Shown: positions 41,186 to 59,270 of the stretch, piece by piece
Layout: the number at the start of each line of letters is the position of its first letter
How positions within the stretch are numbered: the stretch's first letter is position 1
Source of the DNA: an uncultured Cohaesibacter sp.
Lineage (GTDB): Bacteria > Pseudomonadota > Alphaproteobacteria > Rhizobiales > Cohaesibacteraceae
Direction: 5' to 3'
DNA length: 64,000 bases
Assembly: GCF_963664735.1 (NCBI RefSeq)
Contig: NZ_OY761553.1
Coordinates: 2,681,303-2,745,302 of the forward strand
The notes under the pieces: generated by a model
What the model saw: the letters and a program-made list of their open reading frames with translations, nothing else
Databases searched by the model: none
What the model was told of the DNA's origin: nothing
Made by a program: the position numbers and the translations under genes

Positions 41186-43132
41186 ATGTCATCTCATTCC
41201 CTTTCCCAAATCCTCATTCGTCCGGCAAACATGAACGATCTGGCAAGCCTCGTTGAGCTTGAAGATCGGTGCTTCTCAACGGATCAGATTTCTCGTCGTT
41301 CTTTCTCTTCTTTCATCAAGACAGACTCGGCTCGTCTGCTTGTAGCCATCGGTGAAGAAGGCAGCCTTTATGGATATGCCTTGGTGCTGACACGTCAGAG
41401 CACCTCCATTGCCCGGCTCTATTCCATCGCGGTAAAGCCGGAAGCCCGCGGACACGGTGTCGGCTCACAGCTTTTGGGCGGCGCGGAAGCTATCGCCAAG
41501 GAGTTGGAATGCGACCGCTTGTCGCTGGAAGTGCGCGCGGACAACAAGAAGGCGATCAGCCTTTATCAACGCTATGGCTTCCTGCCGGATGAAGACTTGC
41601 CCGGCTATTATGAAGATGGCGCTGATGGCATCCGGCTTGTCCGCTTGCTCGGTCACTTGCCGCAGGGCTCGAAGCCTGCCAACCGCACGCGCTTGCCAAT
41701 CATTCTGGTTGATCACCTCAAGGATCTGGACACGCCCCCCAGTGGCTCTCTTGTTATGACTGTGCGGCAATATCTGGCGCTGGAACACGGCGTTCCGGGA
41801 CGGCGCATCATAAATCTGTCACGCTCTTATGAGCCTCTGTCTCTTGGCTATTATTGCAGCCTTCTGGCTGGCGCTCGCAAGGAACGCTGCCTGCCGGAAG
41901 CTGATGCGTTGCTTGACATCAACTGGAAGCGTATCCATCGGCAAGCTCTTTTGCGCCTTAACCAGATGCTCGATAGCATGGCAGATAAGAACTTTCCGTC
42001 ATCAATCGATATTTATTTCGGTCGCACTGCCGAGCGCCGGTTCCGCGAGGTTGGAAAAACCGCGTTTGACCTGTTCCGCTGCCCGATCATTCGCATCAAT
42101 CTTCAGACGGAGCCCAAATTCAAGATCAAGGAAATCGAAGCTGTCGCCGTGCATAAGCTCACGGATGAACAAAATCCGCGTTTTCTTTCGGCCCTCAGTG
42201 CCTTCCTCAAGGGGAGCTTGCCCAAGCCCTCAATCAGAAAATTGCCGTCCGCAGTTGTCGCCATTCTGGCCAACCCTGAGGAAGAAAGCCCCCCAAGCGA
42301 CGCCAAGGCACTTGAGGCTTTTGCAGCAGCGGCTGAAAAAGTGGATGCGCGCGCCGAGTTCATCACAGCAAAGGACTTTGGTCGTCTTCTCGAATTTGAT
42401 GCCCTCTTCATTCGCGAGACAACGGCGCTTAACCACCATACCTATCGTTTTGCCAAGCGGGCTCAGCGCGAAGGGATGCCGGTGATTGACGATCCACATT
42501 CGATCCTTTGCTGCACGAACAAGATCTATCTTGCCGAGCTGTTGAAATCGAACAAGATCCTGACGCCTCAGACCACGCTGTTTGATCGTCCGCGGCTCAA
42601 GGAGCTGGTCGACAGTTTCGAGTTTCCGGGTATCCTGAAAATCCCAGATGGCTGCTTTTCAAAGGGCGTGCATAAGGTCTCCAGTCGCGACGAACTCAAT
42701 GAGTTGAGCAAATCGCTTTTCCGAAAGACCGATCTGCTGATGATTCAGGAATTCATGCCGACCGACTTTGACTGGCGTATCGGGGTTCTGGATGGCGAAG
42801 CGCTCTATGCCTGCAAATATTACATGGTCAGTGGCAACTGGAAAATCTACGAGTATGAAAAGGATGGATCTATCCAATCCGGCGACTCTGAGACCTTGCC
42901 GATTTCCGCGGTTCCGCCAGAAGTGGTTGACGTTGCCCTTCGCGGCACGCGCCTGATCGGCAACGGCTTCTACGGCGTTGACATCAAGGAAACGCCAAAG
43001 GGGCCTTGCATCATCGAGATCAATGATAATCCGAGCGTGGATTATGGCATTGAGGATGACGTTTTGGGAGCAGACCTCTATCAGCGGCTGATGGCTGTGC
43101 TCGTTAGTCGCGTCGGTCAGAACCACTCTTGA
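41186..43132 (+). CDS. GNAT acetyltransferase / RLAN / RimK-like ATP-grasp fusion protein
   Basis: A 648-residue three-domain cytosolic protein. Residues about 8-155 are a GNAT acetyltransferase (LYSIAVKPEARGHGVGSQLL is the acetyl-CoA loop; ending with YQRYGFLPDED). Residues about 170-320 match the RimK-like ATP-grasp N-terminal (RLAN) domain (LVMTVRQYLALEHG, INLSRSYEPLSLGYYCSLL). Residues about 350-640 are an ATP-grasp ligase with FPGILKIPDGCFSKGV, LMIQEFMPTDFDWRIGVLDG and the metal-binding IIEINDNPSVDYG. Such ligases join amino acids or peptides; coupling to an acetyltransferase suggests synthesis of an N-acylated or capped peptide-like product. It stands alone between other regulons, so no pathway partner is visible. 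Confidence 0.9.
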   Translation: MSSHSLSQILIRPANMNDLASLVELEDRCFSTDQISRRSFSSFIKTDSARLLVAIGEEGSLYGYALVLTRQSTSIARLYSIAVKPEARGHGVGSQLLGGAEAIAKELECDRLSLEVRADNKKAISLYQRYGFLPDEDLPGYYEDGADGIRLVRLLGHLPQGSKPANRTRLPIILVDHLKDLDTPPSGSLVMTVRQYLALEHGVPGRRIINLSRSYEPLSLGYYCSLLAGARKERCLPEADALLDINWKRIHRQALLRLNQMLDSMADKNFPSSIDIYFGRTAERRFREVGKTAFDLFRCPIIRINLQTEPKFKIKEIEAVAVHKLTDEQNPRFLSALSAFLKGSLPKPSIRKLPSAVVAILANPEEESPPSDAKALEAFAAAAEKVDARAEFITAKDFGRLLEFDALFIRETTALNHHTYRFAKRAQREGMPVIDDPHSILCCTNKIYLAELLKSNKILTPQTTLFDRPRLKELVDSFEFPGILKIPDGCFSKGVHKVSSRDELNELSKSLFRKTDLLMIQEFMPTDFDWRIGVLDGEALYACKYYMVSGNWKIYEYEKDGSIQSGDSETLPISAVPPEVVDVALRGTRLIGNGFYGVDIKETPKGPCIIEINDNPSVDYGIEDDVLGADLYQRLMAVLVSRVGQNHS

Positions 43133-43197: not shown

Positions 43198-44145
43198 TCA
43201 GACGATCAGATATTTCTCGATAATTGCAGCCAGAGCTTTTTCCTCGTCTTCCGTAGGTCGGGGAAACGGTTGACGTCCAAGCCCCACGCTATTGTCCATA
43301 AGATAAAGCAACTGCTTCACCCATAAAGGTTTGGGCCCGAGCGCAAGAAGATCTGATCTCAACTCGGACAGCAGCGCCTGCCATTTACGGGCTTCGCGGT
43401 TGCTGCCATTGGCAAATGTCTGGCAAAGATTGTTAAGGGTGCGCGGCAAGATATTGCCCAGATCGGCCATGCAGCCAGTCGCTCCCTTTGAGAGAGCTTC
43501 AAAGATCAATGCCTCCGAGCCAACATAATAATCGAACTTCAGATTGTCGTCCGCAATCTCCAGATAGGACTGCATCAGGCGCGGATCTGCGCCATCATCC
43601 TTGATGCCCCGAATGTTTTCGTGCTCGGCCAGTTGTTCAACCAGAGAAGAGGACAAGGTGCGCATGGCTATCGCAGGCGCATTGTAAAGATAAATCGGTA
43701 TCGGAAGACTATCGGCCACCTTTGTGTAGTGCTGCGAGATATCAGCATCCGAGCATGTAACAAAATAGGGCGGCAAGACGGTAACGCCGTCCACCCCTAA
43801 CCCTGCAATGTCTTTACCAACCAATATGGACTGATAAGTCGAGGGCATGCCGATGTTGGCAAACACCTTCACGCGTCCGTCGGCTTCTTCGACGATCTCG
43901 GCACAAAGGCGAACCTTTTCAGCATGCGTCAGGCAAGCGAAATCGCCTTGCGTATCGCAAACCAGAAGATTGTTGCCAAATCCAATTTGTCGACGCACCT
44001 GATTTCTAACCGCAGAATAGTTGATTGTATCATCGCAGTTAAAGCAGGTGACCATGGCGACGAATGCCTCTGCCTGATTGGATCTTTGGCTCGTCTCGGG
44101 CTTCCTTTTCAGAGCCATTTTCCGGGATATACGAAGATCTTCCAT
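43198..44145 (-). CDS. Dihydrodipicolinate synthase/N-acetylneuraminate lyase family protein
   Basis: A class I aldolase-type protein of 315 residues. The Schiff-base lysine is in NIRGIKDDG and the catalytic Tyr in IYLYNAPA. The usual GTTGE loop of this family is replaced by LVCDTQGDFACL, so the carboxylate/hydroxyl recognition differs from DapA and NanA. Such enzymes release or add pyruvate. It is the last gene of the sigma-54-controlled ABC operon, after a DUF1537 kinase. It may cleave a keto acid, possibly phosphorylated, into pyruvate plus an aldehyde. The start is uncertain; an ATG at 44118 is an alternative. No homologous pathway is recognised. Confidence 0.85.
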   Translation of the reverse strand: MEDLRISRKMALKRKPETSQRSNQAEAFVAMVTCFNCDDTINYSAVRNQVRRQIGFGNNLLVCDTQGDFACLTHAEKVRLCAEIVEEADGRVKVFANIGMPSTYQSILVGKDIAGLGVDGVTVLPPYFVTCSDADISQHYTKVADSLPIPIYLYNAPAIAMRTLSSSLVEQLAEHENIRGIKDDGADPRLMQSYLEIADDNLKFDYYVGSEALIFEALSKGATGCMADLGNILPRTLNNLCQTFANGSNREARKWQALLSELRSDLLALGPKPLWVKQLLYLMDNSVGLGRQPFPRPTEDEEKALAAIIEKYLIV

Positions 44146-44159
44146 CTTTTTGGTCTTTA

Positions 44160-45452
44160 CTATGTCAAGTTACGAGCCTTAGCTTGAATGTCGAGAAGAA
44201 CGGCCTCGTTGCCAAATCCTCCAGCTTTGGAAATAAACCATTGCGTATCCACCTTCTCGGACTGGCAGGCGCCTAGGACAACGCCGGGCATTATCTCATC
44301 GGAGAGATCGATCGCGGCTACTCCAAGGGTGGAAGCAACGGCGATTGCCGTTTCCCCGCCGGTACTGAAAACCGTTTTGAAATGATATTGCTGGCACAAC
44401 GCAAGGGCTGCTTGCCCTATGAGTGAGGCTATGCGTGCGCCCTCCTCTTTTGTGACCCTTGGCGCAACGGCGCTGTTGTCCATGCGCAGCAAGATGTCCG
44501 AGGCGCTGCCCCCTTTGGCCTCGATCTGTTCGAAACAGAGCTTTGCCACATCGGCGTTTTGTGTATCCACCGGCAAAGTGATCGACACAAAGCCCCCCTT
44601 CGCCTCTGCCGCATCTGCTTGTCTGAGGGAAGGAGGGGCCAGGCTGCCCACGATCGCAAGCAACGGACCATCAAAGTGGGGGGCATCCGAAGCTTTAAAA
44701 ACCTCTTTACCTGTCTTTATTGATCCGGCCAGAGCCTTCGCAAAGCCGCCGGCTCCAACTGGTAGGCAATCTGTCTCCAGCACGGCTTCGGCAAGAGCTG
44801 ACAAATGGTTGTCGCAGGTTGCATCAGCGATAAGCAAACGCGCGCCCTTGTCAAGGTGAGAGCGAATTGTTGCCACCAGTGACGGCCGTCCAGCCTCGAT
44901 GTCTTCAATTGACAGCTTTTGGGAGGGCAGCGTGGTCTGGGCTCCGATCATGGCAGCAATTTCGGATGTCGCCAGCGGATGAAAAGGATCTTTGCCGATG
45001 TCTGTTTCATGCAAGGGCACCCCGAAAAGATAGATTTTGCCCTCAATGCAAGTCCGCCCAGTCTCTGGCATTGCGGTGCAGACGAGGGCTGCGGCCTTGC
45101 CGGTTGCTTCAAGGGCTGCCTCTATTTCTGCGCCGGGATTACCTCGCATGGTAGAGTCGATCTTTTTGTAGAAGCGTTCATATCCCTTCTGAATGCAAAA
45201 GCCGATGACGTCTTTGACTGCTCGCCTTGCCTCGTTAGGGGAAAGGAAGCGGGTTTCACTGTTGATTGAAATATTACCGTCCAACAGCTCTTGCAGGGAA
45301 AGACACTGGCGATGAAGAACAAGTTTAAGCTGTTTGCCAAGACGAGAAAAATGGACGCCGGAATCCCCTGCTCCTGTGAAATCATCTGCGATGATGGCCA
45401 GTTTATGATCCTCTTTCACGATTGCCCCCGCATTCTTTCCCGTTTCCTTCAA
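44160..45452 (-). CDS. Four-carbon acid sugar kinase family protein (DUF1537)
   Basis: A 430-residue kinase of the family that includes D-threonate/D-erythronate kinases DtnK and OtnK. N-terminal domain motifs: LAIIADDFTGAGDSG (residues 17-31) and FYKKIDSTMRGNPG (about 92-105); C-terminal nucleotide-binding motifs FSTGGETA and WFISKAGGFGNE. Known members phosphorylate acid sugars before decarboxylation or aldol cleavage. Here it is followed by a DapA-type lyase instead of the OtnC aldolase or PdxA2. It sits 24 bases after the BNR protein gene. Expected substrate: an aldonate or keto-acid derived from the imported compound. Confidence 0.9.
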   Translation of the reverse strand: MKETGKNAGAIVKEDHKLAIIADDFTGAGDSGVHFSRLGKQLKLVLHRQCLSLQELLDGNISINSETRFLSPNEARRAVKDVIGFCIQKGYERFYKKIDSTMRGNPGAEIEAALEATGKAAALVCTAMPETGRTCIEGKIYLFGVPLHETDIGKDPFHPLATSEIAAMIGAQTTLPSQKLSIEDIEAGRPSLVATIRSHLDKGARLLIADATCDNHLSALAEAVLETDCLPVGAGGFAKALAGSIKTGKEVFKASDAPHFDGPLLAIVGSLAPPSLRQADAAEAKGGFVSITLPVDTQNADVAKLCFEQIEAKGGSASDILLRMDNSAVAPRVTKEEGARIASLIGQAALALCQQYHFKTVFSTGGETAIAVASTLGVAAIDLSDEIMPGVVLGACQSEKVDTQWFISKAGGFGNEAVLLDIQAKARNLT

Positions 45453-45476
45453 TCGGCTCCCTAGAGCAAGCCACCC

Positions 45477-46550
45477 TCACACGCTTAGCGACACGTGTTT
45501 GATATAGTCGCGCAGATAGGAGTAGCTGATCTGCAACCGCCCATCGGACGTCTTTATGATTGATGGATAGGAATAATCGCCTCTAAAGGCCCCCTTCCTG
45601 TCGTGAGCGGACAACAATAGCGCATCCTCTTCGACAACGAGTTCCTCGGTCCAGCTTTTGCCAAGATCTGACGAGCTGGCGATAATGAGAGGATTGCGAG
45701 GCACGCCCCAGATGGCACTGTTTTCCGTCACTTCGCACTGGGCGAGAAAGGCTTCTTTGTCCTGCACCCAAGGTGGCACGGCACTTTCGCTCTCCCGCCC
45801 TGCCGCACTGATATGATTGTAGATGATCAACAAGCGGCCATCGTCGAGCTCGGTTGCCTGAATGGAGGAATTGTTGTTCGGCAGTGGCGTCGGTTCTGGC
45901 GCTGACCAGGTGATGCCCCCATCGTCCGAAACCGAGCGGAAGATATAATCAGCCTTGCGGCGGCGATAGAAGGCCACCTTGCAGCTGGGCAGGATATTCA
46001 TGTGAACACAGCCTTCACTGGCTGGCACCTCTGCAAGTGTCCAGCTTGCTCCGCCATCATGGGAAATCTGAACAAGAGAGCGATCATTACCAAACGCATT
46101 CTTCATGCTGGAAAACCAGATGGGCAAAAGGATCTTGCCATCAGGATTGACCACCGGCGGGTGGCGAATGAAGGTGCCTTCCCTATCGAACAAGGTTTCG
46201 ATAGGCCCCCATCTCACGCCCCCATCATCCGAGCGGCGTATACGGACAATCGCCGTTCCCTGATCAGTTTTCAGCTGAGCGGTATAAATCAGCCAGAGCT
46301 GACCGGAGGGCTGACAAAAGAGCGCCGGGTTCTGCTCCGAGCGATCCTCGTCATCGCTCATTTTGACCGCTTCGCTCCAGACACCAGCCGCCTTGTCGAA
46401 GCGGGCGAGATAGATGCTGATATCAGATGATCCCTCCATGCTTCCGCCAAACCAGGTGCACAGAAGATCGCCATTTGCCAACTCAAGTAGATTTGACGCA
46501 TGGTTGCTCAGGCATGGGGTTGGAATGGCTCTGCTTTCAACAATCTTCAT
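45477..46550 (-). CDS. Sialidase-like BNR/Asp-box repeat protein
   Basis: A 357-residue six-bladed beta-propeller of the exo-alpha-sialidase superfamily (BNR_2 type). Asp-box motifs (S-x-D-x-G-x-x-W) occur as SDDGGVRW, SHDGGASW, SDDGGITW and SSDLGKSW. The N-terminal NHASNLLELANGDLLCTWFG and the IRHPPVVNPDGKILLPIWF region are typical. There is no signal peptide after the ATG at 46550 (GTCAGGTG upstream), so it acts in the cytosol, after import. It may hydrolyse or modify a glycosidic or lactone-type bond in the ABC substrate. It lies 145 bases after the OppF-like gene. Specificity for sialic acid is not shown. Confidence 0.88.
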   Translation of the reverse strand: MKIVESRAIPTPCLSNHASNLLELANGDLLCTWFGGSMEGSSDISIYLARFDKAAGVWSEAVKMSDDEDRSEQNPALFCQPSGQLWLIYTAQLKTDQGTAIVRIRRSDDGGVRWGPIETLFDREGTFIRHPPVVNPDGKILLPIWFSSMKNAFGNDRSLVQISHDGGASWTLAEVPASEGCVHMNILPSCKVAFYRRRKADYIFRSVSDDGGITWSAPEPTPLPNNNSSIQATELDDGRLLIIYNHISAAGRESESAVPPWVQDKEAFLAQCEVTENSAIWGVPRNPLIIASSSDLGKSWTEELVVEEDALLLSAHDRKGAFRGDYSYPSIIKTSDGRLQISYSYLRDYIKHVSLSV

Positions 46551-46694
46551 GGCTACACCTGACATATTCATCAATTCCACCACGGCTAGGCGTGGCAAAA
46601 GGCACAAAGGGATCGTGGCACTGGCAAGGACGCTCAAGCCTTTGCCGGTGATGTGCTGATTTCATTTTCAAAGGGGAAGAGCCCCAAGCCGTAA

Positions 46695-47720
46695 TCAGGC
46701 CTCTTCCAATTCGTGGCTTTCTTCAAGCGCGATTTCCGCCAACCGCAAGCAGGCGACCTGATGGCCGTTGCCATGATCCTCCAGCTCTGGCACAGCCTTT
46801 GAACATGCATCGGTTGCGTAGGCACAGCGCGGGTGGAACCGACAACCGCTTGGCGGATCGATGGCGTTGGAAACATCTCCCTTGAGAATGACCCGCTGGC
46901 GTTGCCGTTCGATATCCGGATCCGCTTCCGGCACGGCAGACAGCAGCGCCTTGGTATAGGGATGCATGGGCCGACGGAAAAGCTCTGCCTTGTCCGCAAT
47001 TTCCATGATCTTGCCCAGATACATTACCGCAATTCGATCACTGATATGGCGGACCACGGCCAGATCATGGGCAATGAAGAGGTAGGTGAGATTGTACTTG
47101 TCCTGAATATCCATCAAGAGATTGATGATTTGTGCCTGAATGGATACATCCAACGCAGAAATCGGCTCGTCACAAACGATAAACTCCGGATCGCAGGCCA
47201 GCGCCCGAGCGATGCAGATTCTTTGGCGCTGTCCGCCCGAAAATTCGTGCGGATAGCGGTTTGCGACGTTGGGATTAAGTCCCACATCACGGATAAGCTG
47301 CGCGATCCGCCCCGGAATTTCCTTGTCCGGACAGATTTTATGAACCTTCATCGGTTCGGACAACGCCTCACCAATCGTCATGCGCGGGTTGAGCGTTGAG
47401 TATGGATCCTGAAAGACGATCTGGGCCCGCTTGCGCATTGTGCGCAATTCCGGTTTGGAAAGGGTGGCCAGATCGACCCCTTCAAATTCGACGCTTCCGG
47501 ACGTGGAACGATAGATTTGCAGGATCGTGTAGCCAGTCGTCGATTTGCCGCATCCGGACTCACCTACAAGCCCCAGGGTTTCGCCCTTGAATATATCGAA
47601 ACTGACGTCATCAATCGCATGGACAATCGCTTTTTCACTTCCGAAAGCGCCGATCTTGATGGGGAAATATTTGACAAGGTTCTTCACCTTGACCAATGGC
47701 TGTTTGGCTGCTTTGGTCAT
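46695..47720 (-). CDS. Peptide/oligosaccharide ABC transporter ATP-binding protein (OppF-like)
   Basis: A 341-residue ATPase of the Opp/Dpp type. Walker [10 protein letters not shown], signature FSGGQRQRI and Walker B IVCDEPISALDVS are present. The C-terminal oligopeptide/HPY extension has the cysteine-rich CRFHPRCAYATDAC motif of these proteins. Start overlaps the OppD stop by 4 bases, with GAGGGGG upstream. Together with OppD it powers the OppB-C channel. Because the downstream genes are glycan- and acid-sugar-type enzymes, the cargo is more likely an oligosaccharide or a conjugated acid than a peptide. Confidence 0.94.
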   Translation of the reverse strand: MTKAAKQPLVKVKNLVKYFPIKIGAFGSEKAIVHAIDDVSFDIFKGETLGLVGESGCGKSTTGYTILQIYRSTSGSVEFEGVDLATLSKPELRTMRKRAQIVFQDPYSTLNPRMTIGEALSEPMKVHKICPDKEIPGRIAQLIRDVGLNPNVANRYPHEFSGGQRQRICIARALACDPEFIVCDEPISALDVSIQAQIINLLMDIQDKYNLTYLFIAHDLAVVRHISDRIAVMYLGKIMEIADKAELFRRPMHPYTKALLSAVPEADPDIERQRQRVILKGDVSNAIDPPSGCRFHPRCAYATDACSKAVPELEDHGNGHQVACLRLAEIALEESHELEEA

Positions 47721-48736
47721 CGCACATCCCCCTCTTTGGTCTTTGCGCCCTCCCTGGTTATGTCAACCCAGCAGGCGATACGGTGTTTGGGATTGGCCCC
47801 TTCACCCGAAACCGGCTCAAGGTTTGGAATTTCCTTGGTGCACCGCTCCGTGCAATAGGCACAACGAGGCGCAAACGGGCAGCTTGTTGGTTCGACAAAC
47901 AGGTTTGGCGGGGCTCCGGCGATGGAGGGAAGCCGGCTACCGGCTTCGGTCTTGATGCTCGGGATCGATTTGAGCAATCCGATTGTGTAGGGATGGCGTG
48001 GTGATTTGTATATCTCATCAATCGGGGCTTCTTCCACCACGCTGCCGCCATACATCACCATGATGCGATCCACCATGCCCGCCAGCAGGCTGAGGTCATG
48101 GGTGATCCAGATGATCGACATGTTGAGCTTTTCACGCAGTTCCTTGACCAGCTCCACGATCTGGGCCTGAATGGTCACGTCGAGCGCTGTGGTCGGTTCG
48201 TCGGCAATCACCAGTTCAGGCTCGCCGAGCAGGGCCATGGCGATCATCACCCGCTGGCGCATGCCGCCCGAAAGCTGATGGGGATATTCATGCAAGCGAT
48301 GCTCGCTGTTGGAAATCCCCACCAGATCGAGATATTTGGCGGCCTGCTTCATGGCATCGGCCCGGCTCATCTTCTTGTGATAGATGATGCCTTCACAAAG
48401 CTGTGCTCCAATCTTCATGAAGGGATTGAGCGAGGTCATAGGGTCCTGAAAGATCATGCCGACCTTGGAGCCGCGCACCATGTTGATGTCGTGCGCGCTG
48501 GCCTTGGCCAGGTCCGTTCCTTCCAGCAGCACCTCTCCGTCTGTGATCTGGGCCGCTGGTGGCAGCAGTTTGATGAGGCTCATCATCGATACGCTTTTGC
48601 CGCAACCGGATTCACCGACCACTCCGAGCATTTCCCCCTTGTCGAGGGTAAAGGAAACACCGTTTACCGCGTAAAGATAGCCATTGCGCACCTTGAAGCG
48701 CGTATGCAGGTTTTTCACTTCCAAAAGTTTGGTCAA
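47717..48736 (-). CDS. Peptide/oligosaccharide ABC transporter ATP-binding protein (OppD-like)
   Basis: A 339-residue ATPase with Walker A GESGCGKS, signature LSGGMRQRV, Walker [15 protein letters not shown] and the C-terminal [14 protein letters not shown] motif. It starts with TTG at 48736, preceded by a strong GGGAGGG site, and ends in a 4-base overlap with OppF. Partner of OppF and of the permeases OppB and OppC. The family transports peptides, nickel, oligosaccharides and opines; substrate is set by the binding protein. Confidence 0.94.
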
Positions 48737-48767
48737 AGCGCCCTCCCTTTAGCTGTTCGTTGTTTCT

Positions 48768-49721
48768 CTATTTCCATTGCCGCGGGTTGAGCGCATCGTT
48801 GAGGCCGTCGCCAAGGAAACTGAAGGCGATGGTGACCAACGCAAGCACTGCGGCAGGCGCTGCGAGAATGTGCGGATAGAGCTGCCAGACGCGCAAACCA
48901 TCCGAAATCATGTTGCCCCAGCTGGGGATTGGAGGACGCACGCCAACACCGAGGAACGAGAAGGACGATTCAAACACCATGGCTTCCCCAAGGGCGGCGC
49001 TGATATAGACGATGATCGGGCCGATGGAATTTGGAATGACATATTTCCAGACGATCTTGGCCGTCGGCACACCAATGGCCTCGGCGGCCAACACATAGTT
49101 CTTGTTGCGTACCGACATGATCTGACCACGAATGATGCGGGCAGCCTTTGGCCACTTGATGAGGGCAAGCGAGCCGAACACCAGAACGAAGTCCACCAGA
49201 ATGGTATTCCGATAAAAGGCGTTGCCCGTAAGCAGGAATTGCTCATCCATCCAGTTGACCAGCCTCGGCTTCATCGAGACGTTGATGACGATCACCAGCA
49301 GCAGGGATGGCACCGACATGGTGATGTCGATGAGCCAGACGATGAAGGCATCGATCTTGCCACCGAAATAGCCCCCCAGAGAGCCCATGAAAATGCCGAT
49401 GACCAGGCTGAGCAAGGTGGTTGAAAAGGCGACGATTACGGCGGTTCTTGCGCCATAGATCACACGGCTCATGATATCGCGCCCCAGATCATCGGTGCCG
49501 AACCAATGGACCAGACTTGGTGCCTGATTGCGCGCATGCAAATCCTGCGACAGGAAGTCATAAGGCGTGATATAGGGGCCGAAAATGGCGATGAAAAACA
49601 GGAACAGCACGAGCAGCATGCCCACAACGGCCAGCTTGTTGGCCATCAACCGGTCAAACGCATCCTTGGCCAGACTGAATTGCTTTTCTTCCTGTTGCAG
49701 CTCAAGCGTATTGTCCGTCAT
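48768..49721 (-). CDS. ABC transporter permease (OppC-like)
   Basis: A 317-residue inner-membrane permease with an N-terminal cytosolic segment, the OppC-N helix (KLAVVGMLLVLFLFFIAIFG, about residues 30-50) and five further helices. The EAA-type loop contacting the ATPase is LAAEAIGVPTAKIVWKYVIPN. Its ATG is fused to the OppB stop (TAATG at 49719-49723), showing coupling. The usual length is about 300, so it is complete. Confidence 0.94.
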   Translation of the reverse strand: MTDNTLELQQEEKQFSLAKDAFDRLMANKLAVVGMLLVLFLFFIAIFGPYITPYDFLSQDLHARNQAPSLVHWFGTDDLGRDIMSRVIYGARTAVIVAFSTTLLSLVIGIFMGSLGGYFGGKIDAFIVWLIDITMSVPSLLLVIVINVSMKPRLVNWMDEQFLLTGNAFYRNTILVDFVLVFGSLALIKWPKAARIIRGQIMSVRNKNYVLAAEAIGVPTAKIVWKYVIPNSIGPIIVYISAALGEAMVFESSFSFLGVGVRPPIPSWGNMISDGLRVWQLYPHILAAPAAVLALVTIAFSFLGDGLNDALNPRQWK

Positions 49722-50677
49722 TATTCGTCTCCCGTCTTTTTGGCTGCGGCGCGGGGGTCAAGCAGCGGATAGGAAATATCAACCAGCAGGTTGGAGGCCA
49801 TGACCACCGTCGAGAAGATCAACACGATCGCGAGAATGACCGGATAGTCCGAGGTCTTGATTGCGGTTTCGGTGAGGCGGCCAAGGCCGGGAAGCCCGAA
49901 GACCTTTTCAATAAGAATGGAGTTGTTGAGCGTGGCAATCACCAGAAGGCCAATCTGGCTGACAACAGGCGTCAGCACCGGTCGCATGATGTGCTTGACC
50001 ACGACCTGATAGTTCGGAATACCCTTGGCTCGCGCGGTGCGCACATAATCCTCGCTGAGCACTTCAAGCACCCCAGCACGCGCCTGTCGAATGATCAGCG
50101 CCATCGGGTTGAGCCCCAGTACCAACAGGGGAACAATCACCTTGAAACTGAACAGGCCAGACCAGCCGTAAGGCACGTCCATATCCATGACCAGCACGAG
50201 AAAGACGATGATCAGGGGACCGGCAACAAACACCGGAATACCCCATACGATGAGCGCGAAACCCACGATCAGGTTATCCAGAAGCTTGTTCTGGTTGAGC
50301 GCGGCAATCACACCCAGAATGATGCCAACGATGGAGAGCAGGAAAATCGCGGTAAGCCCGATTTTCAGGGTTACCGGAAGCGCTGCGTTTATCATCGAGT
50401 TGACAGAGCGTCCGGAAACCAGCGAGTTGCCAAAATTTCCGTGCGCTATATTACCAAGATAATCTACGAACTGAACCAGAAACGGCCGGTTCAGTCCTGC
50501 GGCATCCCTGATGGCTTCAACCCTGTCTGGATCATAAGCAACATCGCCTGGGGCCTGCAGGAAGATAAGCTTGATCGGATCGCCAGCTCCAAAGAACACA
50601 AGAGCGTAGATCAACAGAAGAAGAATAAATACCGAGGGAATCCACTTCAGAAGTCGGAATAAGATGTAGCGTCCCAT
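49721..50677 (-). CDS. ABC transporter permease (OppB-like)
   Basis: A 318-residue permease with the OppB N-terminus (GRYILFRLLKWIPSVFILLL), six helices and the EAA loop YVRTARAKGIPNYQVVVKHIMRP. An AAGGA site precedes the ATG. It follows the solute-binding protein gene by 76 bases with an inverted repeat between them. It forms the channel with OppC. Confidence 0.94.
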   Translation of the reverse strand: MGRYILFRLLKWIPSVFILLLLIYALVFFGAGDPIKLIFLQAPGDVAYDPDRVEAIRDAAGLNRPFLVQFVDYLGNIAHGNFGNSLVSGRSVNSMINAALPVTLKIGLTAIFLLSIVGIILGVIAALNQNKLLDNLIVGFALIVWGIPVFVAGPLIIVFLVLVMDMDVPYGWSGLFSFKVIVPLLVLGLNPMALIIRQARAGVLEVLSEDYVRTARAKGIPNYQVVVKHIMRPVLTPVVSQIGLLVIATLNNSILIEKVFGLPGLGRLTETAIKTSDYPVILAIVLIFSTVVMASNLLVDISYPLLDPRAAAKKTGDE

Positions 50678-50708
50678 ATCAAGTCATCCTTGCGAATTCG
50701 GGAAAAAA

Positions 50709-50739
50709 GGACGGGAAGTGAGACCACCACGACCCGTCC
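50709..50739 (-). other. Intercistronic inverted repeat after the ABC binding-protein gene
   Basis: GGACGGG (50709-50715) and CCCGTCC (50733-50739) form a 7-bp stem with a 17-base loop, between the solute-binding protein and OppB. No T run follows. It parallels the dctP-dctQ hairpins of the TRAP operons. Confidence 0.5.
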
Positions 50740-50753
50740 AGGCTCGCCGTCCC

Positions 50754-52373
50754 TTACGGACGTTTTGCTTCGTCGATTGTTACATTCCATGGCTCGATGA
50801 CCTGCCAGTCATCGTTCTTGTCGAAATTGAGGACCCAAGGCATGGCCCATTTCGACATTACGTCGTAATAGTAAGGAATGTAGGTCCAGTCTTCGCGGAA
50901 GAGACCTTGTGCTTCCTGAGCAAGTTTGATGCGAGCTGGATCTTTCACACCCTTGACGGATGCTTCTTCGAGCAGGGCATCAATCTTGTCATTTTTGTAA
51001 CCGCCCAGTTTGTTGCGGGCGTTACCGGATTTCGAGTAAATCGAACCCATCAGGTAGGAAACTGCATCAGGAACACGTGTGCCGACATCGTCACGGAAGA
51101 TCTGAACGCTCTTCTGGTCAGGACCGGAATAGGTTTCGATTGCAGGTTTCATTTCGATACCCTGAATGCCAAGTATCTTGCGCCATTGTTCAGCGATATA
51201 CTGGGCAGCGGCTTCATGGGTCGGGGTGGAAATACCGACGAACATGATTTTTGGCAGACGGTTTGCATCCTTGTATTTGGATGCGGCCAGAGCAGCTTTG
51301 GCAGCTTCCGGATCATATGGATATTTCTTGAAATCAGGATCTACGCCGGGGACCTTGTTCAGGATCTGTGACGCAGCGGTAAACGGTCCATCAGGGAAAG
51401 CTGCGAGAGCCAGCTCTTCAGGATTGACCGACATGATCAGGGCTTTGCGAACGTTAATGTCGTCCATTGGAGGTTTCTTGGCATTGATCCAGAATTGCTG
51501 ACCTTTTGCCAGAGCCGGGCCACCAAGGAAATCGGCACCAAGGTCCTGAATGATGGTTGGCGTGATGAGCTCGGTGTGGGCATCCATTGTGCCGCGTTTG
51601 AGCATCAGCGTTGCAGTGCTGGCGTCAGCAACCGTCGTCAGGACGATTTTTTCCAGTTTCGGTTTCGGGCCGAAGAAATTCGGGTTTGGAACAAGGGTCA
51701 GGATGCCTTGGTCAAGGTCCATGGTTTCAGGCATGAACGGACCGGAAACGACGACGCCATTCTGTGGCATCCACCAGTCGGATTTTTCATTGCCATTCTC
51801 GTCCTGAGCCTGAGAGATCTTGACCGGAGCGATCAGGGCTGTTGCGATTTTCTGATCAAAGATCGGGTCAGCACTTGCAAGTTTGACGGCAACGGTTGCT
51901 TCGTCCTTGATTTCAAGCCCCGTCATATCCTTGGCTTTGCCAACCACAACATCGTTGAAGCCTTCAACCCCCCCCAGAAACAGGTTGACGCGAGCATGTT
52001 TGGTTGCCGGACGGGCGGACAGGTTCCATGTGCCAACAACATCTTCAGCTGTGATTTTTGAGCCATCAGACCAGACGGCATCCGGATTAACATGCAGGGT
52101 CCAGTTGACATAGCTGTCATCGGACTCAACACTTGAAAGAACGTAAGGGGTCAGCTTGCCGTCCTTGTCGAAATACATTGGTGCAGCCCAGCTCAAAGAT
52201 TGCCAACGCGCTGCGTGTCCTCCTCCCTGAAGGGGCGACCAGTTCTGCTGCAGAACCGGATGCGCAATATTAAGCACCTGGCCGCCTTCGGCTGATGCCG
52301 TGCCGCTTTGCAGCGGTGTCAGCCCGAGCACTGCGAGCCCGAGCAAAAGGACTTTGAAAAGATCCTTTTTCAT
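50754..52373 (-). CDS. ABC transporter substrate-binding protein, family 5
   Basis: A 539-residue periplasmic protein. Signal peptide MKKDLFKVLLLGLAVLGLTP with cleavage near the TASAEGG site (about residue 28). The mature chain has the SBP_bac_5 layout: NWTLHVNPDAVWSDGSKITAEDVVGTW, then a long C-terminal lobe ending with DWTYIPYYYDVMSKW. GAGAGGAG precedes the ATG. It is the first gene of the operon and lies about 60 bases downstream of a sigma-54 promoter. The family binds peptides and also sugars and opines; the ligand is unknown. Confidence 0.94.
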   Translation of the reverse strand: MKKDLFKVLLLGLAVLGLTPLQSGTASAEGGQVLNIAHPVLQQNWSPLQGGGHAARWQSLSWAAPMYFDKDGKLTPYVLSSVESDDSYVNWTLHVNPDAVWSDGSKITAEDVVGTWNLSARPATKHARVNLFLGGVEGFNDVVVGKAKDMTGLEIKDEATVAVKLASADPIFDQKIATALIAPVKISQAQDENGNEKSDWWMPQNGVVVSGPFMPETMDLDQGILTLVPNPNFFGPKPKLEKIVLTTVADASTATLMLKRGTMDAHTELITPTIIQDLGADFLGGPALAKGQQFWINAKKPPMDDINVRKALIMSVNPEELALAAFPDGPFTAASQILNKVPGVDPDFKKYPYDPEAAKAALAASKYKDANRLPKIMFVGISTPTHEAAAQYIAEQWRKILGIQGIEMKPAIETYSGPDQKSVQIFRDDVGTRVPDAVSYLMGSIYSKSGNARNKLGGYKNDKIDALLEEASVKGVKDPARIKLAQEAQGLFREDWTYIPYYYDVMSKWAMPWVLNFDKNDDWQVIEPWNVTIDEAKRP

Positions 52374-52442: not shown

Positions 52443-52458
52443 TGCAATTCGCATGCCA
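52443..52458 (-). promoter_or_regulatory. Sigma-54 (-24/-12) promoter of the ABC-BNR operon
   Basis: Read on the minus strand this is TGGCATGCGAATTGCA. It matches the consensus TGGCACG-N4-TTGCA at all fixed positions but one, with exactly 10 bases between the GG and GC doublets. The start site would be near 52432, about 60 bases before the binding-protein ATG. A sigma-54 activator gene lies divergently next to it. Confidence 0.85.
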
Positions 52459-52545
52459 CCAGCACAACTAACTGATTTATATTGATTATTTTTTCTCTAT
52501 ACGAATTTTTCCCAAATGCCCGGTGTCGAAATTTGCACTAATTGT

Positions 52546-52562
52546 TGATGCATGATGCATCA
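52546..52562. promoter_or_regulatory. Candidate upstream activating sequence for the sigma-54 activator
   Basis: TGATGCA-TGA-TGCATCA is a perfect 7-bp inverted repeat with a 3-base spacer. It lies about 115-130 bases upstream of the inferred sigma-54 start site, the usual enhancer distance, and 66 bases before the activator's own start, so it could also mediate autoregulation. Confidence 0.65.
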
Positions 52563-52628
52563 GCAGTTCGTTGCATTTTTTTGGGCGCTCCCGCATACTT
52601 CACCTCGACCAGAGGGGGAGATCAGGTC

Positions 52629-54542
52629 ATGGTAATTGCGTTTATCGCGCCTTTTGAGCAGATCCGCATCAAGGCGCAGAGCATCATCGATACATCCAAC
52701 TATCCAGCAAAAGCCTATCAGGGCGACTTGCATCAGGGGGTCAAAGCCGCTCAGCGAGCGATCGATGAAGGGGCCAAGATCATTATCAGTCGTGGAGGAA
52801 CCGCGCGCCTCATTCGCAAGGCTCTCAATGTCGAGGTCATAGAAGTCGAAGCCTCGATGCAGCGAACGCTCTCCTTCATCTATGAAGAGACCTCAGAGAC
52901 CACTCGCATCGGAATCGTGGGCTTTGCTCCCCTGATCAATCTGGTCGCACCAATCTGCACCATTTTGTCGCGTAACTACCGCTCTTTCGAACTGAGGGAG
53001 AAAGAGAGCATTCAGGAGCAAATGGACATTCTGGTGCAATGGAAACCGGATGTGGTGATTGGTGACGCTGTTGCCTTCCAGTGGGCCAAGTCCAAGGGAC
53101 TGAACGCTTATTTGATCGAATCCAGCATGGAAACCATCGTGGATGCCTTCGAGCGGGCGATGCTGGTTTATAAAAACCTCAACCGCTATTTCATGGCAGA
53201 GAAAAAGCTCGAAGCCGTGCTCGATTGCACCCGTGACGGGGCCGTTCTGGTCAACAATGATGGCAAGATTGAAGAGATTAACAAGCAGGGCTGCACGATC
53301 TTGGGCTATCCCAGAGCCACCCTTCTCGGCTCCAATATTTCAGACTTTTTCAACACGCCAGAACTCAGCAAGGCTTTCCGCAAAAAAGCCCACGCACGCA
53401 ATATTCTTGTCAGCTGGCATGACGACAAGCTGGCGCTGGACTATATCCCGGTCGCGTCCGAAAAGCTTTCCGACAATGCCTCGGTTATCCTGTTTCAGCC
53501 GGTGCAGAAAATTCAGGATACTGGCAACCTGATCCGCAAGAAGCTCAGTGAGAACGGCTTTTATGCAAAATACACCTTCAGCAATATCCTTTATCACTGT
53601 GACGAGATGAAGCGGCTGGTGGAAATGGCTCAACTCTACAGCCAGACGGCCAGCAATATCATGATTGTGGGAGAAACGGGCACAGGCAAGGAGCTGTTTG
53701 CCCAGTCCATTCATAATGCAGGCACGCTTTCCAACGGCCCATTTGTGGCCGTGAACTGCGCGGCCCTTCCAGGCAATCTGCTTGAAAGCGAATTGTTCGG
53801 CTATGCGCCCGGAGCCTTCACCGGAGCCTCGCGCTCGGGAAAAATCGGATTGTTCGAGATGGCCCATGAGGGCACTCTGTTTCTGGACGAGTTGACCGAG
53901 ATGGAGGTTTTCCTGCAAGCCAAACTGTTGCGTGCGCTGCAAACCGGCGAAATCATGAGGATCGGGGACAACAAGATCATTCCGATCAAGGTCCGCATCA
54001 TCGCGGCAACCAACAAGAATCCCATAGAGGCCATCAGCGCTGGCAAGCTGCGTGCTGACCTGTTCTACCGCCTCAATGTGCTGGATCTGAAAATCCCACC
54101 CTTGCGGGACCGCAAGGGTGATCCGGAAGTGCTGTTTGCCAAATTTCTGGAAAAGGCCTGCAAGCTACAGAACATCCCCATTCCCCCCCTGTCCAGTCGG
54201 GCTCTGAAGGAGCTGCGTAATCACAGTTGGCCGGGCAATGTGCGCGAGCTGGAAAATTGCGCAGAGAAATTCGCCACGCTGCAAAGCCTGCATGATTTCA
54301 ACACGCCGCTACTGTCATCGCAAAGCCATCATATGGGGCAAATGCATCGGGGGATTCATGATGCAAGCAACGTCTTGGAGGGAACAACCCTTGATGACAT
54401 GATCGCCGCCAAGGTCAACCAGATTTTCAAGCAGGAAAACTGCAACATATCAAAAACGGCACAGCGGCTTTCGATTGATCGCAATACCGTCAAGCGATGG
54501 CTGGGCAAGGACAGCAAGGCGCAAGGCACCTTGCCGCATTGA
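52629..54542 (+). CDS. Sigma-54-dependent transcriptional activator, PrpR type
   Basis: A 637-residue enhancer-binding protein. Residues about 1-170 match the PrpR N-terminal sensory domain ([44 protein letters not shown]). A PAS domain (about 185-300) follows, then the AAA+ domain with Walker A GETGTGKE, the sigma-54 contact GAFTGA, Walker B TLFLDEL and WPGNVREL. A Fis-type helix-turn-helix ([19 protein letters not shown]) closes the protein. The ATG at 52629 has GAGGGGGAG upstream; the frame is open to 52542, but that part overlaps the palindrome. It should activate the divergent ABC-BNR-kinase-lyase operon. Confidence 0.95.
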
Positions 54543-54564: not shown

Positions 54565-55743
54565 CTAAAAGGCCTTGCCGCGCGCGGAAACCGGCCAGAC
54601 AGTTTCAACCACGCCCTTGCGCACTCCAACATACCAGTCGTGAATATTGCAGGTGGGGTCGCAATGACCCGGCACAAGACGCAGTTTTTCATTGATCTTC
54701 AAAACGCCATCAGGATCGGCAATCGTGCCATGCTCGTCCGAGCATTCCAGATAGGAGACATCATCTCGGCCGTAGACGACGGGCAAGCCGCTATCCACCG
54801 ACTGAACCTTCAAGCCCGCATCGACGATGGCGCGATCAGCCTTCACATGGCTCATGACAGAGGTCAGCAGGAATAAAGCATTCTGCCATTCTCCATCGTC
54901 AATGCGCTTGCCCTCTTCGTCCAGAACCCGGCCATAGTCCGCATCCATGAAGGCGTAGGAGCCGCATTGCAATTCATTGTAAACACCTGATGCTGTTTCG
55001 AAATAGTAGGAGCCGGTGCCACCGCCCCCAACAATATCGCAAGCAAGACCAGCTTCATCCAGAAGTTTCAGGCATGCCTTGACCATCGCAATGGCAACAT
55101 CAACCTTGGCCTTGCGCTCTTGATAGGTGGACAAATGTTGCATGGAGCCCTGATAGGCCTGAAGCCCTGCGAATTTCAGCCCGTGAGCCTTGTTGATTGC
55201 CGTGGCGAGCTGCAACGCTTTCTCAGGATCGGACACGCCGCAACGCCCTGCTCCGCAGTCAATCTCAACAAGGCACTCGATTTCTGTCTCATGCTTGCGG
55301 GCGGCTCTCGACAACTCGTCGACATTATCCATATCATCGACACAGACAATGGTGCGCGCACCCAGCTTGGGCAGGCTGGCGAGCCGGTCGATCTTGTGCG
55401 GATCGCGAACCTGATTGGAGACAAGCAGATCGGAAATGCCACCACGCGCGAAAACCTCGGCCTCGGAAACCTTCTGGCAGCAAACCCCGCAGGCACCGCC
55501 AAGTTCCATTTGGAGCAATGCGATGTCGACAGATTTGTGCATCTTGCCGTGCAGGCGGTGGCGCATGCCATGAGCCTTGATATAGGCCCCCATCTTCTTG
55601 ATGTTATTTTCCAGCGCATCAAGATCAAGGATCAGACACGGGGTCTGGATTTCAGCTTCCTTCATGCCCGGGCAGGCAGGAATATCAAATCCGACCTCCA
55701 GATGCTCAAGTTCAAGATGTTCGCTATTTTCGACCGGAGACAC
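54565..55743 (-). CDS. 3-hydroxy-D-aspartate aldolase / D-threonine aldolase family protein
   Basis: A 392-residue PLP- and metal-dependent fold-III enzyme, close in sequence pattern to beta-hydroxyaspartate aldolase BhcC and D-3-hydroxyaspartate aldolases. The PLP lysine is in RLHGKMHKSVD (about residue 70), with EIDCGAGRCGV and GGGGTGSYYFE as phosphate-binding regions and a metal site in PGHCDPTCNIHDW. It would cleave a 3-hydroxy-D-amino acid to glycine plus an aldehyde. GTG start at 55743 with GAAGGA upstream. The other bhc genes (aminotransferase, dehydratase, imine reductase) are not in the window. It lies convergent with the sigma-54 activator. Confidence 0.9.
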   Translation of the reverse strand: MSPVENSEHLELEHLEVGFDIPACPGMKEAEIQTPCLILDLDALENNIKKMGAYIKAHGMRHRLHGKMHKSVDIALLQMELGGACGVCCQKVSEAEVFARGGISDLLVSNQVRDPHKIDRLASLPKLGARTIVCVDDMDNVDELSRAARKHETEIECLVEIDCGAGRCGVSDPEKALQLATAINKAHGLKFAGLQAYQGSMQHLSTYQERKAKVDVAIAMVKACLKLLDEAGLACDIVGGGGTGSYYFETASGVYNELQCGSYAFMDADYGRVLDEEGKRIDDGEWQNALFLLTSVMSHVKADRAIVDAGLKVQSVDSGLPVVYGRDDVSYLECSDEHGTIADPDGVLKINEKLRLVPGHCDPTCNIHDWYVGVRKGVVETVWPVSARGKAF

Positions 55744-55959: not shown

Positions 55960-57159
55960 TCAGTCATGCTGAAGGGCAGTCATTATACCGCGCAACTCGG
56001 CAAGGCCCTTCATGCGCCCGATAGCCGGATAGCCCGGCTGGGCTTTGCGCTTCTGATCATCCATGATGTCAAGCCCATGGTCAGGGCGCATGGGGATAGA
56101 CCAATCGTCGCGCCCTTCAGCCTTGCGTCTTGCTTCCTCATCCAATGCTGCCTGCATCAAGGCGACCATATCCACATGTCCGCCCAAGTGCTCGGCTTCA
56201 TAGAAGGAGCCCTTGATCGCATCGCTTTCCAAGGCAACATTGCGGAAATGGAGGAAATGCACCCGATCACCCAACCGTTTCATCATGCCGGGCAGGTCAT
56301 TGTCTGGCCGGGCGCCAAGAGAACCGGAACAAAGTGTAATCCCGTTGGCCGGAACATCAACGGCGTCCATCATGTATTTATAATCAGCCTCGGTGGACAT
56401 GATGCGCGGCAAGCCAAGCAAACCAAAAGGCGGATCATCAGGATGACAGCACAAACGCAAGCCAAGGGTTTGGGCGAGCGGAGCGACCTCCTCAAGAAAG
56501 GCGATGAAATGGGCGCGCAACTGGTCTTGGGAGATATTGTCATATTCGGCCAGGTTGGCTCTCACCTTGTCCATGGATGGCGCTTCGGCATCGCCGGGCA
56601 AACCATAGATGATTGATCCGGCCAGTAACTCACGGCCAGCCTCGTCGAGCGCTTCAAACCGGCGCCTTGCCTCTTCAATAACGTCTGCAGGAAAGTCTTC
56701 ATTTGCACCGGCTCTCTCAAGAATGAACAGGTCGAAGGCAGCAAAATCGATCAGATCAAACCGCATGCAAGTCGCCCCGGTTGGCAATCGATAGGTCAGA
56801 TCGGTTCGGGTCCAGTCCAGAACAGGCATGAAATTGTAGCAGATAACCTTGATGCCAGCGCTTGCAAGATTTTTCATGCTCTGTTTGTAATTCTCGAGAT
56901 GGGTACGCCAGTTGCCTTTTTGCTTTTTGATGTCTTCGGAAACGGGCAGGCTCTCAACCACTTCCCAAGAAAGGCCAGAGGGAGACCCATTTTTCTTTCT
57001 TGCAATGATCTCCTTGCGGGCGGTGATTTCTTCCGGGCTCCATACATCACCGGTCGGAATGTGATGCAAAGCGCTGACAACGCCTTCCACACCTGCCTGA
57101 AGCATATCCTCAATTCCTACCCGGTCTTGAGGACCAAACCATCGCCACGTCTGACGCAT
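55960..57159 (-). CDS. uxuA: D-mannonate dehydratase
   Basis: Dehydrates D-mannonate to 2-keto-3-deoxygluconate in hexuronate catabolism. The 399 residues resemble E. coli UxuA along their length: QTWRWFGPQDRVGI at the N-terminus, GVVSALHHIPTGDVW, YNFMPVLDWTRTDL, metal-ligand segments CCHPDDPPFGLLGLPRI and CSGSLGARPDNDL, HFLHFRNV and IPMRPDHGLDIMDD at the C-terminus. GGGAGACGG precedes the ATG. It is divergent from the GntR-TRAP-uxuB operon and has its own terminator. Product KDG can be used by kdgK at 20335. Confidence 0.97.
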   Translation of the reverse strand: MRQTWRWFGPQDRVGIEDMLQAGVEGVVSALHHIPTGDVWSPEEITARKEIIARKKNGSPSGLSWEVVESLPVSEDIKKQKGNWRTHLENYKQSMKNLASAGIKVICYNFMPVLDWTRTDLTYRLPTGATCMRFDLIDFAAFDLFILERAGANEDFPADVIEEARRRFEALDEAGRELLAGSIIYGLPGDAEAPSMDKVRANLAEYDNISQDQLRAHFIAFLEEVAPLAQTLGLRLCCHPDDPPFGLLGLPRIMSTEADYKYMMDAVDVPANGITLCSGSLGARPDNDLPGMMKRLGDRVHFLHFRNVALESDAIKGSFYEAEHLGGHVDMVALMQAALDEEARRKAEGRDDWSIPMRPDHGLDIMDDQKRKAQPGYPAIGRMKGLAELRGIMTALQHD

Positions 57160-57325
57160 TTGCCGTCTCCCATATTGTTTTTTGGCGCAGATGCTCAGAC
57201 ATCTGCCGGACGATGGACATAGTCCAAATCAGAGGAACAATTCCATCCAGATGCAATGCGCATATGGTCCAATCCTATGCGCCTCCTCGTCGCGTTATAT
57301 CAATAACTAGCACAGACAAATCCGG

Positions 57326-57358
57326 TTGACAAGTATGGTGGTAGACCGGTATGGTGGT
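57326..57358 (+). promoter_or_regulatory. Promoter with direct-repeat operator for the GntR-TRAP-uxuB operon
   Basis: A -35 TTGACA (57326-57331) and -10 TATGGT (57350-57355) are spaced 18 bases. The 10-base sequence GTATGGTGGT occurs twice (57333-57342 and 57349-57358), 16 bases apart, overlapping the spacer and -10. This suggests GntR binding that blocks the promoter. Confidence 0.6.
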
Positions 57359-57378
57359 TTTCAATTGGAGGATAATAC

Positions 57379-58083: not shown

Positions 58084-58112
58084 TCCCCATCGACAATGAC
58101 TGGGAGGAACAA

Positions 58113-59093: not shown

Positions 59094-59109
59094 AGCGCAA
59101 GATTTGAAG

Positions 59110-59133
59110 ACCGCCGCCAAATTGGGCGGCGGT
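59110..59133 (+). other. Intercistronic hairpin or attenuator between dctP and dctQ (uxu locus)
   Basis: A perfect 9-bp GC-rich stem (59110-59118 with 59125-59133, 6-base loop) followed by TCTTTTCC lies 17 bases after the dctP stop. The T-rich tail makes partial termination likely, giving more binding protein than permease. Confidence 0.8.
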
Positions 59134-59270
59134 TCTTTTCCTGCTCAATATATCAAAGCGCTCCTCCGCCCCCCAATTAAGGCCCCCGAGGTTTTGCGCG
59201 TTTATGAAAATAATCCGCTCCATTCTTCCGTTCCCCGTTTTGGAGGAATGCACAAACGAACGAGGCTGTT

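Follow-up and report, generated by a model that had tools for sequence, protein, structure and literature searches.

A probable Cohaesibacter operon for uptake and breakdown of a rare sialic-acid-like sugar via D-threonate

Eight minus-strand genes in a 64,000-nucleotide stretch of the genome of an uncultured Cohaesibacter sp. (the window; contig NZ_OY761553.1, positions 2,681,303 to 2,745,302, from a host genome of one contig, 4.94 Mb) probably serve to import a rare sugar of plants or algae that resembles sialic acid, and to degrade it via D-threonate. We read these genes, at positions 43198-52373 of the window, as a catabolic operon controlled by sigma-54 and a PrpR-type activator. Its substrate would be a 3-deoxy-2-ketoaldaric sugar, most likely 3-deoxy-D-lyxo-hept-2-ulosaric acid (Dha) or a short Dha glycoside, degraded in six steps; judged on gene content and context, we regard this full reading as about evenly poised between right and wrong. 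We observed the gene content, the conservation of gene order and promoter, and the linkage in relatives of five enzymes: the sialidase-like BNR_2 protein of the operon (hereafter BNR), its dihydrodipicolinate synthase (DHDPS)-family lyase and its DUF1537 kinase, together with an iron-containing alcohol dehydrogenase (Fe-ADH) and a PdxA protein.

Gene content, order and promoter

A preliminary description, drawn from the sequence alone, had listed eight same-strand genes with short gaps or overlaps. Coordinates and Pfam scores bear this out, and profile searches found every gene in its place and in the family named. The first gene encodes a family-5 solute-binding protein of the OppA/DppA type (50754-52373, minus strand like all that follow; PF00496, 181.8 bits), with an N-terminal signal peptide recognized by eye and 91-97% identity in 10 congeners. 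Next come an OppB-type permease (49721-50677; PF00528, 116.8 bits), an OppC-type permease (48768-49721; PF00528, 100.1 bits; OppC_N, 58.7 bits) and the ATPases of OppD type (47717-48736) and OppF type (46695-47720), both carrying PF00005 and PF08352 (ABC_tran and oligo_HPY). The enzyme genes encode a cytosolic sialidase-fold BNR_2 protein, the proposed ulosonic-acid (Dha) glycosidase (45477-46571, its start corrected from 46637; PF13088, 214 bits), a DUF1537 kinase, proposed to act on D-threonate (44160-45452; PF07005 (SBD_N), 178 bits; PF17042 (NBD_C), 65 bits), and a class I lyase of the DapA/NanA fold, the proposed 3-deoxy-2-ketoaldarate (Dha) aldolase (43198-44145; PF00701, 164 bits).

The annotated start of BNR is a TTG at 46637, and its matches in 10 same-genus genomes begin at residues 21-26, with one at 16. 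The called start is thus probably too early, and Met23 (46571) or Met30 (46550) is the likely one. The corrected start leaves no signal peptide, in agreement with the initial view that the protein is signal-less. Intergenic gaps within the operon range from -4 to +76 nt, except between OppF and BNR, where the corrected start gives 123-144 nt. Folding of this gap, in search of a structured element, gave a z-score of -0.11 and none was found; scans for sigma-70 promoters and terminators returned no more matches than in shuffles.

Upstream of the binding-protein gene, and divergent from it, lies a PrpR_N/PAS/sigma-54 activator gene (52542-54542, plus strand; PF06506, 121 bits; PF00158, 213 bits), the probable regulator of the operon, whose divergent position is conserved in relatives. 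A sigma-54 promoter, TGGCATGCGAATTGCA (52443-52458, minus strand), stands 70 nt upstream of the binding-protein start and is the sole exact match to the sigma-54 consensus in the 64-kb window. All 15 intergenic regions examined between the PrpR-type and binding-protein genes contain a sigma-54 promoter (11 exact, 4 differing at the last base). The order binding protein, OppB, OppC, OppD, OppF, BNR, kinase and lyase, with the divergent PrpR-type activator, is kept in 11 of the 18 genomes of the genus, which are all of those that bear BNR. Because the 10 other BNR-bearing congeners have the identical gene order, the operon goes beyond chance adjacency. The most plausible reading of the eight genes is a single sigma-54 operon served by a dedicated activator. 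That the importer, the DUF1537 kinase, the class I aldolase-fold lyase and the sialidase-fold protein without a signal peptide share one probable transcription unit is supported.

Linkage in relatives and a second cluster

We tabulated 60 BNR loci; the table leaves aside L052-L055 (24-27% identity), L023 and L024 (which share contigs with L038 and L043) and loci retrieved afterwards. BNR, DHDPS, DUF1537, Fe-ADH and PdxA occur all together in 28 of the 60, while 12 (11 of them Cohaesibacter loci) have BNR, lyase and kinase only. The order-level sample comprised 58 genomes with a BNR match, 11 of them Cohaesibacter; the other 47 yielded 34 loci that were read, with 13 unread (4 at 44-55% identity, 9 weak). 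Across these 34 non-Cohaesibacter loci, DHDPS was present in 26, the kinase in 28, Fe-ADH in 22 and PdxA in 24. Control regions, 20 arbitrary 20-kb stretches from 20 of these genomes, chosen by coordinates rather than by random draw and scored alike, contained DHDPS, kinase and Fe-ADH in none and PdxA in one. Co-occurrence of BNR_2, DUF1537 and DHDPS families had been proposed as a check by the preliminary description. A phylum-level sample gave 32 genomes with a match, from which five new close and two distant loci were read: the five, at >50% identity, all have DHDPS, Fe-ADH and PdxA, and four of them the kinase. None of the four partners was found near distant BNR relatives (24-28% identity), neither in the two phylum-sample loci nor in the four class-sample loci (L052-L055).

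Clusters of this kind occur in Rhizobium, Sinorhizobium, Agrobacterium, Neorhizobium, Azospirillum, Caballeronia and Pantoea (with the kinase not nearby); in marine Cohaesibacter the cluster is divided between two sites. Matches came from 309 plasmid records, of which 12 were taken by hit and 2 by accession, chosen by hand; a contig scan with a single BNR protein as query gave four loci only. Rhizobium plasmids carry the importer, lyase and BNR of this set linked to Fe-ADH, PdxA, a DUF1537 kinase and a GntR regulator, and all five enzymes accompany an Opp-type or other transporter in records from Azospirillum, Caballeronia (L057, where kinase and PdxA are fused), Sinorhizobium, Agrobacterium, Neorhizobium and Roseateles. 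Gene order within the set varies between lineages, as do the transporters (Opp, SSS, another ATP-binding cassette (ABC) system, Tct). The YhcH family includes a sialate anomerase, and YhcH is present in Pantoea L058 and in L213, L214 and L216. No kinase gene lies close to the cluster of Pantoea ananatis L058, and the BNR of Pantoea L020 has none of the four partners. The kinase gene seems to be split into pieces in R. beringeri TP24 (L021, 2048-3110) and in G741 (L148), where OppF also gives two pieces.

A full cluster lies at 153.9-165.4 kb of S. meliloti 1021 pSymB. Tags that may belong to it are leads only: SMb20144 is called an ABC gene for organic acids/alcohols in a passage of PMC2848018, and smb20141/142 are called Dpp-like in a passage of PMC2651895.

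The host genome has an unlinked paralogous cluster at about 874-884 kb, some 1.85 Mb from the operon. It encodes a 355-aa DUF1537 kinase, a GntR regulator, PdxA (the proposed PdxA2, genome 876434-877459), a 2-hydroxyacid dehydrogenase, a DapA-fold lyase 41% identical to that of the window, TctA and TctC, parts of a tripartite carboxylate importer (with TctB recognized by eye), and Fe-ADH (genome 882807-883922). No BNR gene was found in this cluster, and a carboxylate importer without BNR is as expected if the free acid is an intermediate. Orthologues of Fe-ADH (at least 80% identity) and PdxA2 (at least 82%) occur in all 11 congeners with BNR and the operon; among the 7 congeners without them, 3 have Fe-ADH (74-76%). 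Shared ancestry weakens the statistics of these counts, and one of the seven, G005, is only 64% complete. At L161, in G641, counterparts of the second-cluster genes (PdxA, kinase, GntR, hydroxyacid dehydrogenase, lyase and Fe-ADH) directly adjoin BNR and Opp genes, an arrangement that ties the window operon and the second cluster together. The window operon would supply uptake, hydrolysis, lyase and kinase, and would borrow the reductase and PdxA from the second cluster. OtnC and PdxA2 had been named beforehand as known partners of DUF1537 kinases; PdxA2 is the likely partner here too, if from an unlinked site, and no class II aldolase OtnC is present among the operon genes.

The host genome has four DUF1537 matches in all. 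One is beside an OtnC-like aldolase gene, recognized by eye (L109, 1.78 Mb), and one beside another PdxA gene (L108, 14.7 kb). A D-2-hydroxyacid dehydrogenase resembling phosphoglycerate dehydrogenase (L106, 11475-12434, minus strand) is conserved between the second cluster and L161.

Proposed route and its alternatives

The link to D-threonate comes through enterobacterial clusters. At the enterobacterial locus L213, the score of the linked kinase under the NCBIfam D-threonate kinase model is 613.5 (cut-off 450), and PdxA scores 681.5 against 583 for D-threonate-4-phosphate dehydrogenase, a cut-off that the Pantoea PdxA also passes (665). Over its full length (residues 1-442), the L213 kinase matches PDB entries 4xfm/4xgj with 852 bits and is mostly identical to them; we take these entries to be the assayed Pectobacterium D-threonate kinase. 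The best PDB match of the window kinase is the same chain, 4xfm, at 137.9 bits.

We infer all of the reactions, the co-transcription and the substrate. With D-threonate as an intermediate, an aldolase yielding pyruvate and a four-carbon semialdehyde acid, followed by a reductase, would be an economical use of the two remaining enzymes, and this assignment points to a seven-carbon 3-deoxy-2-ketoaldarate as the parent. To our knowledge, Dha is the natural compound of this type. In a derivation by hand, cleavage and reduction turn C5 and C6 of Dha (left and right in the D-lyxo configuration) into C3 and C2 of an acid that is D-threo once the Fischer projection is turned, that is, D-threonate. The Opp-type importer would thus take up Dha or a short Dha glycoside, and the cytosolic BNR_2 protein would hydrolyse the ulosonic glycosidic bond. 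By retro-aldol cleavage, the DapA-fold aldolase would convert free Dha to pyruvate and the semialdehyde OHC-CHOH-CHOH-COOH, which the Fe-ADH of the second cluster would reduce to D-threonate. The DUF1537 kinase would phosphorylate this to 4-phospho-D-threonate, and PdxA2 would oxidatively decarboxylate the phosphate ester to dihydroxyacetone phosphate. The sialidase-fold protein, the lyase of the NanA superfamily and the YhcH of Pantoea-type clusters agree with an ulosonic acid. Passages of PMC6811678 describe Dha as a seven-carbon sialic acid analogue that is cleaved from rhamnogalacturonan II (RG-II) by GH143, and a passage of PMC12168206 states that in plants Dha and 3-deoxy-D-manno-oct-2-ulosonic acid (Kdo) are reported only from RG-II.

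An AlphaFold2 model of BNR (predicted local distance difference test 79.6, predicted template modelling score 0.82; model residues 248-284 and 314-324 are of low confidence) has GH33 sialidases as its best Foldseek matches (E 2.6e-16, query template modelling score 0.70, 14% identity), and the predicted fold is the sialidase beta-propeller. Tyr357 is invariant in 60/60 BNR sequences, at what is presumably the spacing of the sialidase Tyr motif. In GH33 sialidases, an N-terminal RIP arginine belongs to the carboxylate-binding triad; its place, assigned by sequence rather than superposition, is taken by His46-Ala47 in all 60 BNR sequences. One part of our reading, that the cytosolic BNR_2 proteins with the HA motif may form a new family of ulosonic-acid glycosidases, is tentative, and we lean somewhat towards doubting it. 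The window lyase keeps the Schiff-base lysine, Lys182, as well as the catalytic Tyr154; across an alignment of 54 sequences, conservation in both columns is 90% or higher. As the preliminary description had noticed, it lacks the usual GTTGE-type pyruvate-carboxylate motif, with D64-T-Q-G-D (DTQGD) instead; DTIGD is found in L046, and GTNGD, GTNGE, GTTGE or GSTGE in the other alignment rows shown. The window lyase falls under the curated cut-offs for dapA (153 of 206 bits) and nanA.

Several observations weigh against the Dha route. The best NCBIfam model for the window kinase is indeed D-threonate kinase, with a score of 242 bits that is below the cut-off of 450. The rhizobial kinase (138 bits) and that of the second cluster (122 bits) fall further below it; of the relatives scanned, L213 has a kinase that passes, and L022, L057 and L106 do not. 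Rhizobial PdxA (303) and second-cluster PdxA (293) miss the specific cut-off of 583 and pass only the general pdxA model. As these proteins miss the specific cut-offs, the assignment to D-threonate is transferred, on the basis of gene context, from the clusters of enterobacteria. The kinase tree places the window clade away from the short kinases of complete clusters. Identity to the window proteins among congeners is 88-99% for the transporter, 70-87% for BNR, 55-74% for the lyase and 48-69% for the kinase; the last two diverge far more than the transporter, which, given that the genome has another copy of both, could reflect relaxed constraint. The altered carboxylate-binding motif of the window lyase, and the different DHDPS subfamilies that fill the lyase slot, also weigh against the Dha route. 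Without the RIP arginine, recognition by BNR is not that of GH33, and by this test the protein is not a GH33 member. BNR often adjoins symporters (L020, L050, L057, L058, L152, L155, L172, L213-L216), which suits a monosaccharide, or at least a small imported molecule, and puts the need for a glycosidase, and the bond it would cut, in doubt. Four of the 60 loci have BNR without any of the other four enzymes nearby, and the 2-hydroxyacid dehydrogenase of the second cluster has no place in the proposed steps. As to the source, the host genome has one GH28 match and zero PF00544 pectate lyase matches, and GH28 was present in 5 of 10 further chosen related genomes (not all ten carry BNR); a pectin source is not general, and pectin genes give no clear support. 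Dha would also have an algal source.

From the genes present, the carbon skeleton of pyruvate plus a four-carbon acid follows more securely than the stereocentre lost at C4, and transporters of Opp, SSS, another ABC and Tct type are found in different clusters. The same five-step logic could therefore serve another seven-carbon 3-deoxy-2-ketoaldarate, such as a heptarate-derived acid or a stereoisomer. We think this unlikely: no dehydratase from a heptarate to the 3-deoxy-2-keto acid is annotated in the neighbourhoods read, and Dha is the natural compound known to us, with a stereochemistry that yields D-threonate. Alternatively, BNR might free D-threonate from a glycoside or ester conjugate for the kinase and PdxA2, with DHDPS and Fe-ADH handling the other half, an ulosonic acid. 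Such a scheme would employ all five enzymes and agrees with an oligomer importer, yet it needs a conjugate of which no natural example is known to us, and the second cluster, with all but BNR plus a carboxylate importer, has DHDPS and the D-threonate-type enzymes together without hydrolysis. We consider it quite improbable.

We likewise give little credence to a larger ulosonic acid (of Kdo, sialic, legionaminic or pseudaminic type), for which BNR would be sialidase-like, DHDPS an ulosonate lyase and the kinase would act elsewhere. The fold matches are GH33 sialidases, with the pseudaminidase 2w38 among them, and DHDPS scores weakly for nanA; the nanA score, however, is 76 bits against a cut-off of 382, the neighbourhood tables read list neither a kinase nor an epimerase for N-acetylmannosamine (ManNAc), and the lyase would give C5-C6 aldoses, senseless for a D-threonate kinase and PdxA2. 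Kdo and the sialic, legionaminic and pseudaminic acids were set low as candidates, their lyase products not being four-carbon acids. The preliminary description had proposed import and hydrolysis of a conjugate, phosphorylation of the sugar by the DUF1537 kinase and, last, aldol cleavage. The order of genes in the window (BNR, kinase, lyase) follows this scheme, but gene order varies between lineages, and the co-occurring PdxA2 would be expected to act on what the kinase makes. Because the kinase travels with PdxA and Fe-ADH in complete sets, and the L213 kinase and PdxA pass the D-threonate cut-offs, phosphorylation would instead follow aldol cleavage, with aldolase, reductase, kinase and PdxA2 acting in that order. 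The earlier scheme is incomplete, and its order of steps is not supported; we deem that order very improbable.

The surroundings of the operon hold further genes. A hexuronate catabolism region at 55960-62689 encodes UxuA, GntR, TRAP DctP/DctM and a fructuronate-reductase-like (UxuB-like) protein; these neighbours are compatible with pectin-type substrates. In G008 (L112), the second, BNR-less cluster abuts homologues of three genes of the hexuronate region. A protein encoded at 54565-55743 (minus strand) scores above the cut-off for the 3-hydroxy-D-aspartate aldolase BhcC (739.7 of 690), and its gene adjoins that of mannonate dehydratase. On the other side, at 41186-43132 (plus strand), a large protein has, by eye, an acetyltransferase N-terminus and an ATP-grasp (RimK-like) C-terminus; of the 10 other congeners, all but L046 and L047 (8 in total) have its gene next to the operon.

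Comparison with known systems

If true, the Dha route would account for a nutrient route linked to plants or algae, reveal the origin of D-threonate and provide a sequence-based test for one group of the proteins annotated 'exo-alpha-sialidase' in such bacteria. The parts belong to known families; the combination and the proposed chemistry appear new. The preliminary description knew of no pathway with this set, and in open-access full text we likewise found none, although the PNAS paper that names the kinase family may show part of the neighbourhood. Searches of the open-access full-text literature did not find DUF1537 or D-threonate together with dihydrodipicolinate synthase; papers that did turn up were one on R. 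gnavus and sialic acid and a rhizobial genome-wide association study. For heptulosaric acid with aldolase, the open-access papers returned were one with a passage that only lists RG-II sugars and an Aspergillus transcriptome study, and in those on Dha nothing was found on what bacteria do with it after release by GH143. The passage of PMC6811678 on GH143 is silent on what becomes of the freed Dha.

Catabolism of D-threonate by the DUF1537 kinase DtnK and PdxA2 was reportedly described by Zhang et al. in 2016. The proposed route is alike in having a DUF1537 kinase and PdxA2 as its last two steps. It is unlike it in that D-threonate would be an intermediate formed from a larger sugar acid via aldolase and Fe-ADH, with a sialidase-fold hydrolase and an importer upstream, and in that the window operon is without PdxA2, whose gene is found in the unlinked cluster here and close to the kinase gene in many relatives. 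In the galactarate/glucarate route, the aldolase GarL, the reductase GarR and the kinase GarK act in turn. That route similarly has an aldolase giving pyruvate and a semialdehyde acid, then a reductase and a kinase, whereas here the substrate would be C7 rather than C6, with a class I DapA-type aldolase in place of GarL, Fe-ADH in place of GarR, and DUF1537 kinase plus PdxA2 in place of the glycerate kinase.

Sialic acid catabolism employs a sialidase, an SSS transporter, NanA and YhcH. The likeness lies in the sialidase-fold protein and the NanA-superfamily lyase, and in the SSS symporter and YhcH of Pantoea-type clusters; in contrast, BNR is without the RIP arginine, the lyase is not NanA by model, and D-threonate-type steps are found with no ManNAc steps annotated. 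Passages of PMC10971088 name DtnK and DenK, and DUF1537 kinases are contained in the OtnK/OtnC, OtnI and DenD clusters according to a passage of PMC10580937. Those clusters share the DUF1537 kinase with the operon, which has no class II aldolase OtnC. Finally, the bond proposed to be cleaved by BNR is that cleaved by the GH143 Dha hydrolase of Bacteroides, which passages of PMC6811678 describe as a five-fold propeller in a bimodular enzyme, whereas BNR belongs to a separate, single-domain BNR_2 family.

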